Assembly: GCF_007795095.1 (NCBI RefSeq)
Contig: NZ_CP042218.1
Location: 1,488,001 to 1,552,000, forward strand
Reading direction: 5' to 3'
Source of the DNA: Luteimonas granuli
GTDB taxonomy: Bacteria; Pseudomonadota; Gammaproteobacteria; Xanthomonadales; Xanthomonadaceae
Length of the DNA stretch: 64,000 nucleotides
Made by a program: the position numbers and the translations under genes. This document shows positions 8,771 to 16,121 of this stretch, piece by piece. The notes beneath the pieces are model-generated. The model saw only the letters and a program-made list of their open reading frames with translations, made no database searches and was not told the DNA's origin. How positions within the stretch are numbered: position 1 is the stretch's first letter; the number at the start of each line of letters is the position of its first letter.

Positions 8771-10016
8771 ATGAACCTGTTCCGCAACCTGCTGATCTGG
8801 ATCCTGCTGGCGATCATCGGCGCACTGGCCTGGCATCTCCTGGCCCAGGATCCCGGCTACGTGCTCGTGCGCTACCGCGGCTGGGACTACACCACCAACC
8901 TGCTCTGGGTGGCGGTGGCCGTGGTGCTGGCCCTGTTCGCACTGTGGCTGCTGTGGTCGCTGGTCGCGCTGCCGCTGCGCGCATTCCGCCGGCGCCGCGA
9001 CCAGCAGTCGCGTGCACGCCTGGGCTCCGGCCTCGAGGCCCTGCACCAGGGACATTACGCCCGCGCCGAGAAGCTGCTGCCGCAGGCCAGCGACCGGAGC
9101 GATGCGGCGGTCGCCCGCCTGGCCGCGGCCCGCGCCGCCATGGCCCGCGGCGATCATGCGGCGGCGCGCGCCCACCTCGACGCGATCGACGCCACCCATG
9201 CCCTGACCCGCGCGATCGGCCGCGCCGAGCTGGCGCTGGCCGAGGACCGCCCTACCGATGCCCTGGTCGCGCTCGACGATCCGGGGGCGCAGCCCCTGTC
9301 GCCGCGCGGTCTGGCACTGCGCGCCGACGCCCTGGCCGCTTCGCGCCAGGCCGGCGACGCCTATGAACTCCTGGGCGCACTGCGCCAGCAGCAGGCCCTG
9401 CCCGGAAGCGGTGCTCGCCGAACGCGAACGACGCTGGGCGGCCCAGTCGCTGGCCGAGGCCACGGACTCCAACGCGATCGCCGATCGCTGGGAACGCCTG
9501 CACAAAGCGCTGCGCAGCGACCCCCTTGTCGTGGCCGCCTATGTCGAACGCGCCGCCGCCCTGGGCTGGGAGGATGCCGCGACCTCAAGCATCGAACACG
9601 CGCTGGACGCACGCTGGGACGAGGGCCTGGCCGCGCGCTATGGCCGCCTGCCGATCGGCCGCATCGACCATCGCGAGGCGACCGCCGAACGCTGGTTGCG
9701 GCGACACCCGGGGAGCCCCGCCCTTCTGCTCACCCTGGCCCTGCTGGCGCGGGCCCGCGGCGACTGGGCGCAGGCCGAGGACCGGCTGCACCGCGCACTG
9801 GCCCAGGGCGCGGGTCCGGACGCCTGGGAGGAACTGGGCCACGGCCATACGTTCGCCGGCGACGACACCCGCGCCCGCATCGCCTATGCCAATGCCCTGC
9901 GGGCTCGCCGCGGCGAGCCCGTCGAGCCGCTGCCGGCCGAAGCGTCAGGACCGGGCATCGAGGATCCGGGCGTAGCCGAAGACCGGGACGCGCATGGACT
10001 CCCCCGCATGTCGTAG
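8771..10016 (+). pseudogene. hemY: HemY, heme-operon TPR membrane protein (single-base frameshift)
   Basis: Proteobacterial HemY: two N-terminal membrane helices (LLIWILLAIIGALAWHLLA and NLLWVAVAVVLALFALWLLW, ~6-62) followed by tetratricopeptide repeats facing the periplasm. It has nothing to do with protoporphyrinogen oxidase HemY of Bacillus. The frame breaks at codon 211: the run CCC at 9401-9403 carries one base too many. Before it the protein reads LLGALRQQQALP; after it, in the next frame, EAVLAERERRWAAQSLAEAT, and TPR sequence continues to the TAG at 10016. Repaired length is 414 residues, normal for the family. The downstream half looks fully constrained, so an assembly error is more likely than decay. 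Confidence 0.87.
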
Positions 10017-11407: not shown

Positions 11408-12334
11408 ATGAACCAGATCACAGCGAACACTCCCCGGACCGACCGCGTGCTAGGCGCGCTGGCGCTCGAGCTCACGCCCGGAAGCGGGGCCGCGCGCGAC
11501 GCCGTGCCCCAGGCCGAAGCCGGTGCGCTGGCGGCCCTGGTCGCCGCCGACCTCGCCGCATTCGCGCCGGAGGCCGCAGCCCTGGACTGCAGCCTGGTGG
11601 CCGCGCACTTCGATCCGGTCGAACTGCTGCGTCCGGGCTGGCCGCTGCACCAGGAGCTGTGGCAGCTCGCCGCCAAGGCGCCCCGCGCTCCCGGCGGCGG
11701 CGCCCGCATCCTCGCCTTCGGCAGCCACCAGGGCCGGCTCCCGGGCGCGCTGTCGCCGTCGGCGGAACATGCCGGCGGCCCGCTGCGCCTCCTGCCCTTC
11801 GTGCTCGATGGCGATGCCGCGGTCGCGGCGCGGGTGTCCGCCCGCTGCGAGGCCGACCTGATGGAAGAAGGCATGGCCGGCGCCGGTACCGCGCTCGCCA
11901 TGCAGGAGGCCTTCGGACTGCGGGTCGAACACGCCCGCTATCTCACCGTCCACGATCTCTGCGCCCTGACCGCCATGCAGTACGAGCACGCGGGCCTGGC
12001 GCCGCTGTGGCCGCTGCTCGAGACCGCGCTGCTGTCGCCGGCGCGGAAGGCCTGGCTCGATGCGCCCCCCGAACCGCTCCTCCACTACGCCGGCGACGGT
12101 ACGGTGCGGATGGCGCTGTTCACGCCCGCCGCATGGCGCAGCCGCCACGCACCTGCGGCGACGGTCCCGGAAGAGGACGAAGAGGCCCACGCGCGACTCG
12201 CGCGCATGTTCGGGCATTACGAGGCACGCCAGCGCCAGTTCGCCGGCGTGCTGCGGGCCCATGGCCTGGCAGTGGAGTTCGTCCACTGCCAGGACGGTGC
12301 GCGGGCGGAGCTCGCGGCCCCGGCCCCGCGCTGA
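11408..12334 (+). CDS. Hypothetical protein
   Basis: A 308-residue soluble protein without signal peptide or membrane helix. I do not recognise it. Visible features: Ala/Leu-rich N-terminal helices (ALAALVAADLAAFAPEA), a central ARILAFGSHQGRLPGALSPS segment, AMQEAFGLRVEHARYLTVHDLC and a C-terminal helix MFGHYEARQRQFAGVLRAHG. Codon use is normal for the genome and the antisense frames are artefacts. It starts 78 bp from divergent fadI and ends one base before the end of convergent sodC. No partner genes suggest a function. Confidence 0.75.
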   Translation: MNQITANTPRTDRVLGALALELTPGSGAARDAVPQAEAGALAALVAADLAAFAPEAAALDCSLVAAHFDPVELLRPGWPLHQELWQLAAKAPRAPGGGARILAFGSHQGRLPGALSPSAEHAGGPLRLLPFVLDGDAAVAARVSARCEADLMEEGMAGAGTALAMQEAFGLRVEHARYLTVHDLCALTAMQYEHAGLAPLWPLLETALLSPARKAWLDAPPEPLLHYAGDGTVRMALFTPAAWRSRHAPAATVPEEDEEAHARLARMFGHYEARQRQFAGVLRAHGLAVEFVHCQDGARAELAAPAPR

Positions 12335-12335
12335 T

Positions 12336-12963
12336 TCACATCGCCCGCGAGATCACGCCGCAGGCCAGTCGCGCGCCGGCGTTGCCGGTGGGCTGGGTGG
12401 TGTAGTCGTCCGGATCCGCGTGCACGATCACGCTCTTGCCCATGATGTCGGTCGGCGCGCCGTCGCCGAGAGTGGCACCTTCGAGCCGGGTATCGATCAT
12501 GGCCACGCCAGTGTCGTCGGCGACGATGTTGTCGGTGTCGCCGACATGGTGTTCGCCCTCGCCGACGCGACCGTGCGCGCTCGCCTGCGGATTGAAGTGG
12601 CCGCCGGCGCTGCTCGCGTCGGGCGCGCTGCAGTCGCCGTTCTCGTGCACGTGGAAGCCATGCTCGCTGCCCGGCGCCAGGCCGTTGACCTGGCCGCTGA
12701 TGGCGACGCCGCCGTCGATCGCCATGGAAGCCGAGCTCGCCGGTGACCGAATTGCCCTCGGTCGCAGCGAGGACGGCGTGGGCGCCGGCGTTGGACATGG
12801 TGTCCATGGCGGGCGCCTGGCTGGCCGGAGTGTCGGCGCTGGCGGGAGCGGCGGGAGCGGCGGGCGGGGTCGCCGCCTCGTCCACGCCATCCTTCGGTGC
12901 ACCGCAGGCCGCGAGCGCGACCGCCAGCGAGGCAGCGAGCAGGGAGAGGGAAATGCTGCGCAT
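12336..12963 (-). pseudogene. sodC: Cu/Zn superoxide dismutase lipoprotein (single-base frameshift)
   Basis: Periplasmic [Cu,Zn] superoxide dismutase, converting superoxide to H2O2 and O2. An N-terminal lipoprotein signal (LLAASLAVALAAC) and an Ala/Pro linker precede the catalytic domain. All metal ligands are present: HGFHVHENGDC, SAGGHFNP, SAHG, HHVGD and IVHADPDDY; the disulfide cysteines are in GDC and ACGVI. One extra C in the minus-strand TTCC (12726-12727) breaks the frame between SVTGELGF and MAIDGGVAISGQV, before the catalytic residues. Repaired length is about 208 residues. It follows its degenerate paralogue by 5 bp, with GGAG inside the paralogue's last codons, so the two are coupled. 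Confidence 0.88.
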
Positions 12964-12968
12964 GGGTT

Positions 12969-13526
12969 CTACTCCTTCGAAGACGCGCCTTCGGGCGCAA
13001 TGGTGATGACGCCACAGGCGATACGTGCGCCGGTCGCGCCGGCCGTGGATCCGAGAACCACCAGTGACTTCCCGGCGATATCGTTGGGCGCGCCGCCGCC
13101 GAGCACCGCGCCGGTGACGAGCTGGTCGACGCGGGCCACCCCGCGTTCGCTGGCGATGATACGGTCGCTGCCGCCGCTGGCCGCACCGGCGCCGCTGGCG
13201 TCGAAGTACGGTCCCGCACTGGAGGCGTCGATGGCGCTGCAATCGCCGCGCGCGTGCACCTGCAGCACATGGGCACCGTTGCGGCTCAGGCCGCCGACCT
13301 CGCCGGACAGGCGCACGCCTCCGGACTCCGCGCGCAGGGTGATGCGTCCGCTGGCCAGGGTGGCCGAGGCGGAGGAGAGGTTCGCATGGGCCAGGCTGGC
13401 GCTGCCGGCGGCCGCGCGCGGGGACGGCGGTTCCCGCGACACGGCGGACGCAGGAGCGGACGGTGGTGTGCCGGCACAGGCGGCGAGCAGGCCTGCGGCG
13501 AGCAGGGCAGCGAGTGGACGGTGCAT
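12969..13526 (-). CDS. SodC-like lipoprotein lacking metal ligands
   Basis: A 185-residue paralogue of the adjacent SodC with a lipoprotein signal (LLAAGLLAACAG, Cys ~17). The fold-defining parts are kept: GVRLSGEVGGL, HARGDCSAIDASSAG, GAPNDIAGKSLVV and ARIACGVIT, including both cysteines of the structural disulfide. The metal site is gone: HVH is QVH, GGHFNP is GPYFDA, the SAHG and HH-D zinc ligands are absent, and IVH is VVL. Only one of seven ligands remains. It should have no dismutase activity and may be a structural, binding or partner protein. It is co-transcribed with sodC, with ntrC 71 bp upstream on the same strand. Confidence 0.88.
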   Translation of the reverse strand: MHRPLAALLAAGLLAACAGTPPSAPASAVSREPPSPRAAAGSASLAHANLSSASATLASGRITLRAESGGVRLSGEVGGLSRNGAHVLQVHARGDCSAIDASSAGPYFDASGAGAASGGSDRIIASERGVARVDQLVTGAVLGGGAPNDIAGKSLVVLGSTAGATGARIACGVITIAPEGASSKE

Positions 13527-13597
13527 CGTGTCGATGGACGGCAGGCGGAAGCCGCAAGCGTAGCCCGTGCCGGGTGGCGGGCGCGTGAGCCGCGCGT

Positions 13598-15079
13598 TCA
13601 GGCCTTCGGCCCGCGCGCGCCGAGCTTGCGCGTGAGCGTGTTGCGGCCCAGCCCGAGGCGTGCGGCGGCTTCGCCGCGGTGACCGCCGGTATGTTCGAGC
13701 GCGGCCTCGAGCAGCACGCGGTCCAGGCGTTCGCGGGCGTCGGCATGGATGTCTTCGGCCTCCTCGTCCAGACGGGTGTGCGCCCACCGCCGCAGCGCGG
13801 TCTCCCAGTCGTCCGCGGCCGGTCCCTGCGTTCCCCGGCGGGCAGCCGTGGCCGATCCCGCGCCGGCCTCGACACCACTCACGCCCGCCGCGGTGTCCAG
13901 GCGCAGCATCCCGTCGAGGTCCGCCGCCCCCACCCGCTCCCCCGGCGCCAGCGCGGCCAGGCGCCAGCAGAGGTTCTCCAGTTCCCGCACGTTGCCAGGC
14001 CAATCGTGCGCCTGCAGCCGCTCCAGCGCGGACCGCGACAGCCGCTTGGCCGGCGCCCCGAAACGGACGGCCGCCCGCTGCAGGAAGCGCTCGGTGAGCT
14101 GCGGAATGTCGCCGGCGCGCTCGCGCAATGGCGGCAGGCGCAGGCGCACCACGTCCAGCCGATGCAGCAGGTCGGCACGGAAGCTGCCATCGCGGACCTT
14201 CGCTTCGAGGTCCTGGTGGGTGGCGGCGATCACCCGCACGTCCACGGTGATCAGGTTGCGTCCGCCGACGCGGAAAAACTCGCCCTCGGCCAGCACCCGC
14301 AGCAGGCGGGTCTGCAGTGACAGCGGCATGTCGCCGATCTCGTCCAGGAACAGCGTTCCGCCGTCGGCCTGTTCGAAGCGCCCCACGTGCCGGCGCTGGG
14401 CGCCGGTGAAGGCGCCGGCCTCGTGGCCGAACAGCTCGCTCTCCAGCAGTTCGGCGGGGATCGCCGCGGTGTTGAGCGCGACGAAGGGCCCGCGCGCGCG
14501 CGGCGACTCGCGATGCAGTGCGCGCGCCACCAGCTCCTTGCCGGTACCGGTCTCGCCGGTGACCAGCACGGACAGCGGCGCCTGAGCGAGCCGGCCGATC
14601 GCACGGAACAGCTGCTGCATGGCCGGAGCGTCGCCGACCAGCACATCGTCGGCGGCGTGAGCATCGCCGGCGGCCTCGCCGGGCGCCGCGGCCTCCGCGT
14701 CGACCTCGCCCAGCGCGCGGGCGGCGAGCGCCACGGCATCGTCGAGATCGAAGGGCTTGGAGAGGAACTCCTGCGCCCCGCCGCGGAACGCACCGGCGGT
14801 GCTGACGACATCCGTATGCGCGCTCATCACCACCACCGGCAGCGCCGGAAGCCTGCGCTTGAGCGCATCAAGCAGGGCCAGGCCGTCGTCGCCGGGCATC
14901 CGCACGTCGGTGAACAGCAAGCGCGGCCGCGGGCCGCCGCGGTCGAGCGCGGACAGCACGTCGGCCGCGGACTCGAACGCGGTGACCTCGTAACCCGCCT
15001 CGCGCAGGGCAGTGGCCAGCACGAAGCGCACCGCGCGGTCGTCGTCGACCACCCAGACCAAGGGTTCACTGCGCGTCAT
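13598..15079 (-). CDS. ntrC: Nitrogen regulation response regulator NtrC
   Basis: Sigma-54 enhancer-binding regulator of nitrogen assimilation, 493 residues. Domains in order: receiver (1-125) with phospho-acceptor Asp in LLFTDVRMPGDDG (~56) and Lys in SKPFDL; AAA+ domain (~145-375) with Walker A GETGTGKE, the sigma-54 contact loop GAFTGA, Walker B GGTLFLDEIGDMP; and a C-terminal Fis-type helix-turn-helix (HRGEAAARLGLGRNTLTRKL). Phosphorylation by NtrB under nitrogen limitation drives oligomerisation and activates promoters such as that of glnA at 26678. Its start overlaps the end of ntrB by 14 bp. The linker before the HTH (~390-440) is Ala/Gly-rich and longer than in enterobacteria. Confidence 0.97.
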   Translation of the reverse strand: MTRSEPLVWVVDDDRAVRFVLATALREAGYEVTAFESAADVLSALDRGGPRPRLLFTDVRMPGDDGLALLDALKRRLPALPVVVMSAHTDVVSTAGAFRGGAQEFLSKPFDLDDAVALAARALGEVDAEAAAPGEAAGDAHAADDVLVGDAPAMQQLFRAIGRLAQAPLSVLVTGETGTGKELVARALHRESPRARGPFVALNTAAIPAELLESELFGHEAGAFTGAQRRHVGRFEQADGGTLFLDEIGDMPLSLQTRLLRVLAEGEFFRVGGRNLITVDVRVIAATHQDLEAKVRDGSFRADLLHRLDVVRLRLPPLRERAGDIPQLTERFLQRAAVRFGAPAKRLSRSALERLQAHDWPGNVRELENLCWRLAALAPGERVGAADLDGMLRLDTAAGVSGVEAGAGSATAARRGTQGPAADDWETALRRWAHTRLDEEAEDIHADARERLDRVLLEAALEHTGGHRGEAAARLGLGRNTLTRKLGARGPKA

Positions 15080-16121
15080 CGCGGGCCTCCCGTCCTTCAG
15101 GTGGATACGGCAGCAGCAGGGTGAACACCGTGTGTCCCGGGCGCGAGCGGAACGCCAGGCTGCCCTGGTGCTCGCGCGCCACCTGTTGCGCCAGGGCCAG
15201 CCCCAGTCCGCTGCCTTCGGCGCGACCCGAGACCAGCGGCAGGAAGACCTGCTCGGCAAGTTCCCCGGGCACGCCCCGGCCGTCGTCCAGGATGTCCAGG
15301 CGCAGGCCCAGCGCGTGCGCGGTCGCGCCGATGCGTATGCCGTGTTCGGCGCGGGTGCGCAGCACGACTTCGCCGGCACCCGCCTCGATGGCGTTGCGGA
15401 CGAGATTCCAGACCGCCTGCACCAGGCGATCGGGATCGCCCTCGAGTCCGGGCAGGCTCGGGTCGTAGTCGCGCACCAGCTTCACCGCCCAGCCGGCCTC
15501 GGCCTCCGCCAGGCGCAGCACGCGCTCGAGCACCGCATGCACGTTGAGCGGCACGTGCGCGCGCGGCGGCGCGGGATCGAGCAGACGGTCGACGAGGTGT
15601 GCCAGGCGGACGACTTCGGAGTCGATCAGCTCCACCAGCTCGCGCGACGCGGCATCGTCGCCGGGAAGGCGTCGTGCCAGCAGCTGGGCCGCACCCTTCA
15701 GGCCCGCGAGCGGGTTGCGCAACTCGTGCGCCAGACCCTTGAGCGCGGCCGACAGCGCCAGCGGCAGCGCGGCCACGGGATCGTCGCCGGGAAATTCATC
15801 CACCGGGTGCAGCTCGAGCAGCCAGCCGCCGTCATCGACCGCAGTGAGCCAGGCGTCGGCGAAGCGCGGCGCGCCGCCCGGAACGGACAGCGCCAGGCGC
15901 TGGAGGCGCGCCGATTCACGCGGCGCGCCGGCCGCGGTCAACCGGGCAAGCGTGTCACCTTCGAACTCGAGCGCCGCCAGCGGCATCCGCGCAAGGCGCC
16001 GCGCACTGGCCACCAGCCACTGCGCGCAGGCGGCATTCACGGCAAGCACGATGCCGTCGGCGCCCACCGTCAGCACCGGGGTGCTGAGCTGGTCGTAGGC
16101 GGAAGGGGCGGCGGTGGGCAT
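15066..16121 (-). CDS. ntrB: Nitrogen regulation sensor kinase NtrB
   Basis: Soluble histidine kinase/phosphatase partner of NtrC, 351 residues, controlled by PII protein in the known systems. An N-terminal PAS-like domain (~8-110) is followed by the H-box LAHELRNPLAGLKGAAQLLARR (~130, phosphorylated His) and an ATPase domain with N-box VWNLVRNAIEAG, G1 DDGRGVP and G2 GSGLGLALAQQ. No membrane segment, as expected. The ATG at 16121 has no Shine-Dalgarno sequence: the 19 bases before it are a perfect NtrC box. The N-terminus begins like other NtrB proteins just ahead of the PAS domain, so the start is probably right. Confidence 0.95.
   Translation of the reverse strand: MPTAAPSAYDQLSTPVLTVGADGIVLAVNAACAQWLVASARRLARMPLAALEFEGDTLARLTAAGAPRESARLQRLALSVPGGAPRFADAWLTAVDDGGWLLELHPVDEFPGDDPVAALPLALSAALKGLAHELRNPLAGLKGAAQLLARRLPGDDAASRELVELIDSEVVRLAHLVDRLLDPAPPRAHVPLNVHAVLERVLRLAEAEAGWAVKLVRDYDPSLPGLEGDPDRLVQAVWNLVRNAIEAGAGEVVLRTRAEHGIRIGATAHALGLRLDILDDGRGVPGELAEQVFLPLVSGRAEGSGLGLALAQQVAREHQGSLAFRSRPGHTVFTLLLPYPPEGREARDDAQ

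Follow-up and report, generated by a model that had tools for sequence, protein, structure and literature searches.

Proteins that keep the fold of Cu/Zn superoxide dismutase (SOD) without its complete metal chemistry have precedents in bacteria, eukaryotes and viruses. Bacillus subtilis YojM is described as an inactive SOD paralogue whose copper site is disrupted (PMC10432803, PMC6322740). Xanthomonas citri is described as having two Cu/Zn SODs with consecutive locus numbers, XAC0209 (yojM) and XAC0210 (sodC2), both modelled as conventional (PMC6322740). Insect CCS is reported to support SOD1 stability without copper transfer, and the same source describes Cu-only SODs, which have lost the zinc site and loop VII, keep the copper histidines and are active, as well as some CSRP repeats that have lost the copper site too (PMC13017621). 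Leporipoxvirus SOD homologues are described as catalytically inert, acting by protein binding with host CCS as their target (PMC10211241).

Here we analyse a sodC-like gene of Luteimonas granuli (Xanthomonadaceae), located in a window of 64,000 nucleotides (contig NZ_CP042218.1, positions 1,488,001 to 1,552,000), whose product, hereafter the ligand-poor SodC, retains one of the seven metal ligands of a Cu/Zn SOD. Compared by description, it resembles YojM in that both are SOD paralogues of bacteria whose copper site is disrupted; however, YojM lacks two copper ligands, whereas the Luteimonas protein has in addition lost every zinc ligand and the greater part of the electrostatic loop, and has kept an adjacent ligand-complete paralogue. 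The X. citri pair, likewise compared by description, belongs to the same bacterial family, and a family-wide pair of copies 1 and 2 is found in other genera, but copy 1 of Luteimonas is without six of the seven ligands and has both active-site loops shortened. Domain II of CCS is, as described in PMC13017621, also a SOD-fold pseudo-subunit in which the disulfide is kept and copper binding is absent. CCS is however eukaryotic and intracellular, contains two further domains, one for copper binding and the other a small oxidoreductase domain, and in the human protein domain II keeps its zinc site, whereas the Luteimonas lipoprotein has a SOD domain only and no zinc site. The leporipoxvirus homologues share the inert SOD fold, but are viral and have host CCS as target; the Cu-only SODs, on their published description, share the loss of the zinc site and loop VII, but keep copper histidines and activity. 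The Luteimonas protein is therefore not categorically new, YojM, CCS and the poxvirus decoys being its precedents; in kind it is comparable to YojM and CCS domain II, and what is new is the deeper loss of the metal site and the constant ligand-complete neighbour. A literature search over titles and abstracts of open-licence papers returned no description of it.

Results

Fold and metal sites of the ligand-poor SodC

Translation of the gene gives an intact frame that starts with a lipoprotein signal peptide and contains a single recognisable domain (Table 1). The match to the Pfam profile PF00080 (Sod_Cu) reaches 49.2 bits for a cut-off of 28.9 and covers positions 2-133 of the 133 of the profile. 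The L. granuli genome contains two PF00080 matches, this protein and the neighbouring SodC2, whose domain piece scores 134.8 bits. No domain besides PF00080, and so no ATX1-like copper-binding domain, was found at E <= 0.001. Against the equivalog model NF047632 (SodCCaul) the ligand-poor SodC scores 24.4 bits and the SodC2 domain piece 84.1, both below the cut-off of 250; as the SodC2 piece also misses it, this result argues only weakly against a catalytic SodC identity. The AlphaFold2 model, a single chain that informs on the fold only, is a SOD β-barrel with a mean pLDDT of 86.1 and a pTM of 0.76. All 50 PDB matches listed for the model by Foldseek and VIA-align are Cu/Zn SODs, with the CuZnSODs 8iq0 (Z 17.8, rmsd 2.1, 127 residues) and 7b4o (Z 17.8, rmsd 2.2, 132 residues) among the best. 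By profile and by predicted model, the ligand-poor SodC is a Cu/Zn-SOD-fold protein.

Table 1 Features of the sodC locus in the window (residue numbers are those of the ligand-poor SodC).
Feature	Position	Strand	Basis or remark
Ligand-poor SodC paralogue, at the copy-1 position	12969..13526	-	185 aa + stop; orthologues in 47 relatives
Lipoprotein signal peptide and lipobox LAAC (Cys17)	13476..13526	-	sequence; Cys17 invariant in 48/48
Cu/Zn-SOD-like domain, residues 59-174	13005..13352	-	PF00080 and AlphaFold2 model
His91, sole ligand retained (human H48 position)	13254..13256	-	48/48
Disulfide subloop, residues 94-106, with Cys96	13209..13247	-	Cys in 48/48
Remainder of the zinc loop, residues 107-120, without zinc ligands	13167..13208	-	4 columns mostly gapped in the clade
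Greek-key loop VI, residues 139-153, highly conserved among ligand-poor copies	13068..13112	-	pairwise identity
Shortened electrostatic loop, residues 159-167	13026..13052	-	7 columns mostly gapped
SodC2, domain frame with all seven ligands; switch of frame between about 12731 and 12722	12336..12963	-	
ntrC, upstream neighbour, conserved order	13598..15079	-	Pfam
ntrB-like histidine kinase	15066..16121	-	Pfam HisKA and HATPase_c
308-aa protein, converging on the sodC pair	11408-12334	+	unknown family

The seven ligand positions, in the numbering of human SOD1, are H46, H48, H63, H71, H80, D83 and H120; the corresponding columns of the ligand-poor SodC, aligned with ligand-complete SodCs, hold Q89, H91, Y107, a gap, A116, G119 and L158. 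The same ligand numbering is printed in PMC13017621. One copper ligand of four is left, that of the H48 position, in L. granuli as in all 48 ligand-poor copies analysed, and none of the four zinc ligands is kept in L. granuli. Across these 48 copies (L. granuli and 47 relatives) H46, H63 and H120 are never retained: the first column holds Gln in 31, Arg in 16 and Glu in one, the second Tyr in 28, Glu in 16, Phe in three and Trp in one, and the third Leu in 38, Met in six, Ser in three and Ile in one. The Arg found at the H46 position in the 16 copies is the substitution of the human SOD1 H46R entries 1oez and 1ozt, which are among the listed structure matches. The D83 column, in a gappy loop, has Asp in five copies and His in one, and a full zinc set is found in none. 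By comparison, all seven ligands are present in 13/13 ligand-complete copy 1s and in 56 of the 57 copy 2s, the 57th being gapped at two columns. The cysteines C96 and C171 (C57 and C146 positions), from whose columns the disulfide is deduced, and the active-site R168 (R143 position) are conserved in 48/48. The initial annotation, made from the window alone, had described an intact frame that keeps the disulfide cysteines, the lipobox and one of seven ligands, and the alignment bears out this description.

Judged on these columns, the protein does not have the four copper ligands and the zinc set of a catalytic Cu/Zn SOD, though it would pass for one by its cysteines and arginine. Nor is it a Cu-only SOD: its loop VII is shortened, but its copper histidines are gone except H48. 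The combination found, a SOD fold with a disrupted copper site, is the one described for YojM.

An alternative ligand set could have rebuilt a metal site, which the initial annotation had named as an observation that would speak against its reading. No such replacement was detected, as the 48 copies contain no new invariant His, Cys or Met: histidine is invariant at positions 86 and 91 only, and cysteine only at 17, 96 and 171, the residues of the lipobox and the disulfide. It is thus improbable that the protein holds one metal ion at a rudimentary site, formed by His91 with His86, Tyr/Glu107 or others, and has a weak metal-binding or redox function. The invariance of both histidines, the frequency of Tyr and Glu at position 107 and the occasional Asp in the D83 column would fit such a site, but position 107 varies, no new His or Cys has become invariant, and H86 is also His in copy 2 and aligns with what we take to be the non-ligand His43 of SOD1. 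The proposal that the protein is a copper-site chaperone is likewise disfavoured in the copper-carrying sense, because a single copper ligand of four remains.

Relative to 54 ligand-complete sequences at the copy-1 position, the ligand-poor clade has exchanged Asn for D109 (0.96), R122 (1.00) and A164 (0.92), Ala for G159 (1.00) and Pro for T161 (1.00). D109 and R122, whose positions hold Asn in the ligand-complete copies, are candidates for a salt bridge replacing the zinc site.

Origin and distribution

In a tree of 117 SodC sequences, from which the L. granuli SodC2 was left out, copies 1 and 2 are separated by a split with 100/100 support that predates the genus splits. Within copy 1, all 48 ligand-poor proteins group in a single clade (100/100), whose branch has a length of 0.73. 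Because of this position and of the shared ntrB-ntrC-sodC order, the ligand-poor gene is, on tree and gene order, orthologous to the copy 1 that is ligand-complete in Pseudoxanthomonas, Stenotrophomonas, Lysobacter and others, and no stray duplicate. The ligands were lost on one long branch, together with the deletions in the zinc and electrostatic loops, and conservation followed. Copy 2 was also considered as the source of the dead copy and rejected, since the dead clade lies inside copy 1 and at the copy-1 position after ntrC.

A protein search over 52 Luteimonas genomes, that of L. granuli included, gave matches in 51, and sequence was fetched for 50 relatives. The ligand-poor copy is present in 48 of the 52 genomes, always as an open frame with a lipobox. 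Three genomes (G070, G144 and G261) have a single ligand-complete copy instead, and G277, which is 88% complete and in 570 contigs, gave no match. SodC2 directly follows the ligand-poor copy in 46 of the 47 relatives, the contig ending at this point in the 47th, and none of the 52 genomes has copy 2 without the ligand-poor copy. A wider scan with one genome per species yielded 352 related loci, and 37 of the best 80 of these 352 are of the ligand-poor type, under the titles Luteimonas or Lysobacteraceae, Gammaproteobacteria or Proteobacteria bacterium. Furthermore, a profile search over 395 family genomes gave 34 matches of at least 241 bits, followed by a gap down to 192 bits; these 34 are 33 of the 36 genus genomes drawn and one more genome (G072), probably L. 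cucumeris. The ligand-poor SodC is a genus-level trait of Luteimonas, kept intact by most examined species.

Several loci depart from this distribution. L. cucumeris (L129) has a ligand-poor copy, yet its NtrC groups outside that of other Luteimonas, which may reflect transfer or the limits of the genus. The three single-copy Luteimonas genomes (L110, L111 and L112), two of which match L. aquatica and L. panaciterrae, have one ligand-complete copy 1, and copy 2 was not found there. In the NtrC tree two of these three (L157 and L168) fall inside the genus, with a branching order that the tree leaves unresolved. Three profiles were used to ask if copy 2 stands alone in other genera, and the single-copy loci L009, L018 and L026 gave near-equal scores on those of copy 1 and copy 2. 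Outside the genus, copy 1 of Xanthomonas albilineans (L183) has three changed zinc-site ligands (HHDQHEH), with no copy 2 in the fetched stretch; this change is independent, and perhaps reductive.

Selective constraint

All 48 ligand-poor copies are open through the last SOD strand and cysteine to their own terminal stop. The search had flagged one stop within the aligned stretch in ten ligand-poor matches; because all 48 frames run beyond the last SOD cysteine, these flags concern the tail of the alignment. Under a codon model, omega is 0.073 for the ligand-poor copies (126 codons, 48 sequences) and 0.062 for copy 2 (141 codons, 46 sequences), and fixing omega at 1 (kappa 2.5) worsened the fit by 1,145 and 1,295 lnL units, respectively. 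Pairwise NG86 estimates, for which pairs below 72% identity or with dS outside 0.05-1.2 were dropped, gave median ratios of 0.34 (670 pairs) and 0.40 (929 pairs); we prefer the likelihood estimate, because synonymous sites are probably saturated or GC-biased in the pairwise one. By both methods the two copies are alike. Moreover, over the 46 genomes with both genes the mean p-distance is 0.376 for the ligand-poor copy and 0.386 for copy 2, the former being the faster in 443 of 1,035 pairs.

These figures bear on the idea that the gene is a decaying pseudogene, open by chance in L. granuli. The loss of six of the seven ligands would suit decay, and copy 1 has seen its ligands partly changed in another lineage, that of X. 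albilineans. Against this stand the open frames, the low omega, the far worse fit of the neutral model and a divergence no faster than that of copy 2, and we reject decay in Luteimonas as barely conceivable. Random decay, with stops and high dN/dS, had been named in advance as one outcome that would overturn the initial annotation, and the opposite was observed; its description of a maintained, catalytically dead SOD-fold lipoprotein is well supported by the open frames, omega and the ligand loss. The gene product is probably a maintained SOD pseudoenzyme, a working non-enzyme and not a dying gene.

Regional conservation was measured as mean pairwise identity, the ligand-poor copy being compared with copy 2 of the same 46 genomes. 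Identity falls to 0.41 in the zinc loop, versus 0.74 in copy 2, and is also lower in b4, which carries the Cu-His pair (0.71 versus 0.79), in the disulfide subloop (0.85 versus 0.92), in b7 (0.75 versus 1.00) and in b8 (0.76 versus 0.94). It is higher in the Greek-key loop (0.85 versus 0.68), in b1-b2 and in b3 (0.71 versus 0.56 in each case) and in b5-b6 (0.66 versus 0.54). In the electrostatic loop seven columns are mostly gapped in the ligand-poor copies and the other six stand at 0.87, versus 0.79 over 13 columns in copy 2. Constraint is thus gone from the metal-bearing loops and strands, and the Greek-key loop and roughly half the barrel are held more tightly than in copy 2. Such a pattern would be expected of a protein that needs its fold and some surface, and the metal no longer.

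This pattern is also what a metal-free SOD-fold lipoprotein would display if its function were separate from SodC2, for instance that of a cell-envelope protein binding a different partner or ligand. The strong constraint on regions other than the metal loops, which peaks in the Greek-key loop and the remnant of the electrostatic loop, and the clade-specific residues R122, G159 and T161 (48/48), with D109 nearly as constant, are in favour of such an independent role. However, SodC2 adjoins the gene in 46/46 relatives whose contig allows a look, and no outside partner or ligand is known. We regard this role as possible, and nearly as likely as that of a SodC2 partner, which we prefer and to which the locus itself is relevant.

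The locus and SodC2

On the minus strand the genes are ordered ntrB, ntrC, ligand-poor sodC and SodC2, the last two in tandem, the stop of copy 1 being 5 nt from the ATG of copy 2; the gap has a median of 62 nt (range 5-154, n = 46). Among the best 80 of the 352 loci, ntrC was found in 73, in 68/80 no more than 800 bp upstream of the SOD domain, and ntrB in 72. A homologue of the convergent 308-aa gene, whose product has no Pfam or NCBIfam match, occurs in 72 of these best 80 loci (Lysobacteraceae), at most 1.5 kb downstream in 69/80. A promoter and terminator scan of 12200-13700 gave no matches and is uninformative.

In the L. granuli assembly SodC2 starts with its signal peptide (ATG at 12963) in one frame and has its ligand-bearing domain in another. 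The SodC2 of a relative aligns with 12963-12727 in the first frame and resumes in the second at 12722 (at 12731 for a second relative), reaching 12339, and copy 2 is a single open frame in all 46 genus relatives where it is readable. A HemY-family gene at about 8771-9953 is also split over two frames when compared with two relatives (HemY_N by Pfam in a relative), and the genome, in one contig, is rated 89.98% complete, most relatives standing at 99-100. Because of this second split gene and the low completeness, we infer that the SodC2 frameshift is probably an indel error of the assembly. As it stands in L. granuli, it counts against a partnership of the two proteins. The initial annotation, correct on the tandem pair and on the ligands of SodC2, had not noticed the interrupted SodC2 frame of this assembly. 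A further frame-split case may lie at 32.3-32.9 kb. The single-chain structure prediction for the SodC2 of a relative has a mean pLDDT of 79.7.

Discussion

Our preferred reading, which we hold tentatively, is that the ligand-poor SodC is a maintained SOD pseudoenzyme acting as a non-catalytic partner of SodC2. A partnership is plausible on the basis of co-occurrence and adjacency. The sequences show that copy 1 of an ancient sodC pair gave up both metal sites on a single branch and had its zinc and electrostatic loops shortened, and that purifying selection then preserved it as a predicted lipoprotein with SOD fold, disulfide and Greek-key loop. This protein may fold without metal and dock on nascent or metal-poor SodC2 by SOD-SOD contacts, and docking could promote the folding, disulfide formation or membrane tethering of SodC2, by analogy with CCS domain II and SOD1. 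In eukaryotes the disulfide subloop and the Greek-key region lie near the SOD1 dimer and CCS contacts, and both regions are well conserved in the ligand-poor clade.

Other observations weigh against the partner role. The joint retention of a single gene pair is also compatible with two functions that are independent of each other, and retention of copy 2 is expected once copy 1 had lost its activity. The disulfide subloop, b4, b7 and b8 are looser than in copy 2, so that the likely contact regions are not all tighter. Furthermore, a SOD-SOD dimer is not a given, because some bacterial SodCs are monomers.

Contacts of another kind are conceivable if the protein is a decoy or sink and reduces the activation of SodC2 by binding a copper-handling or thiol-oxidising protein of the periplasm, since docking surfaces could persist without ligands. 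We know of no dedicated periplasmic SodC copper chaperone in this bacterial group, and that most of a genus should encode a self-inhibitor beside its target is harder to account for. Even with the precedent of the CCS-binding poxvirus SOD homologues, as described in PMC10211241, we consider a decoy very improbable.

The partner role could take a more specific form, a prokaryotic counterpart of CCS domain II, in which one SodC of the ancestral pair has become the metal-free, membrane-anchored and dedicated assembly partner of the other. We consider this version unlikely, although if it is true, bacteria have a SodC-specific maturation factor. In any case, the gene pair, whose metal-less SOD-fold member is conserved nearly as strictly as the enzyme, allows a SOD pseudo-subunit to be tested in a simple bacterium. 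Moreover, the loss of ligands on a single branch, with ligand-complete outgroups at the same position, displays how selection shifted away from the metal loops.
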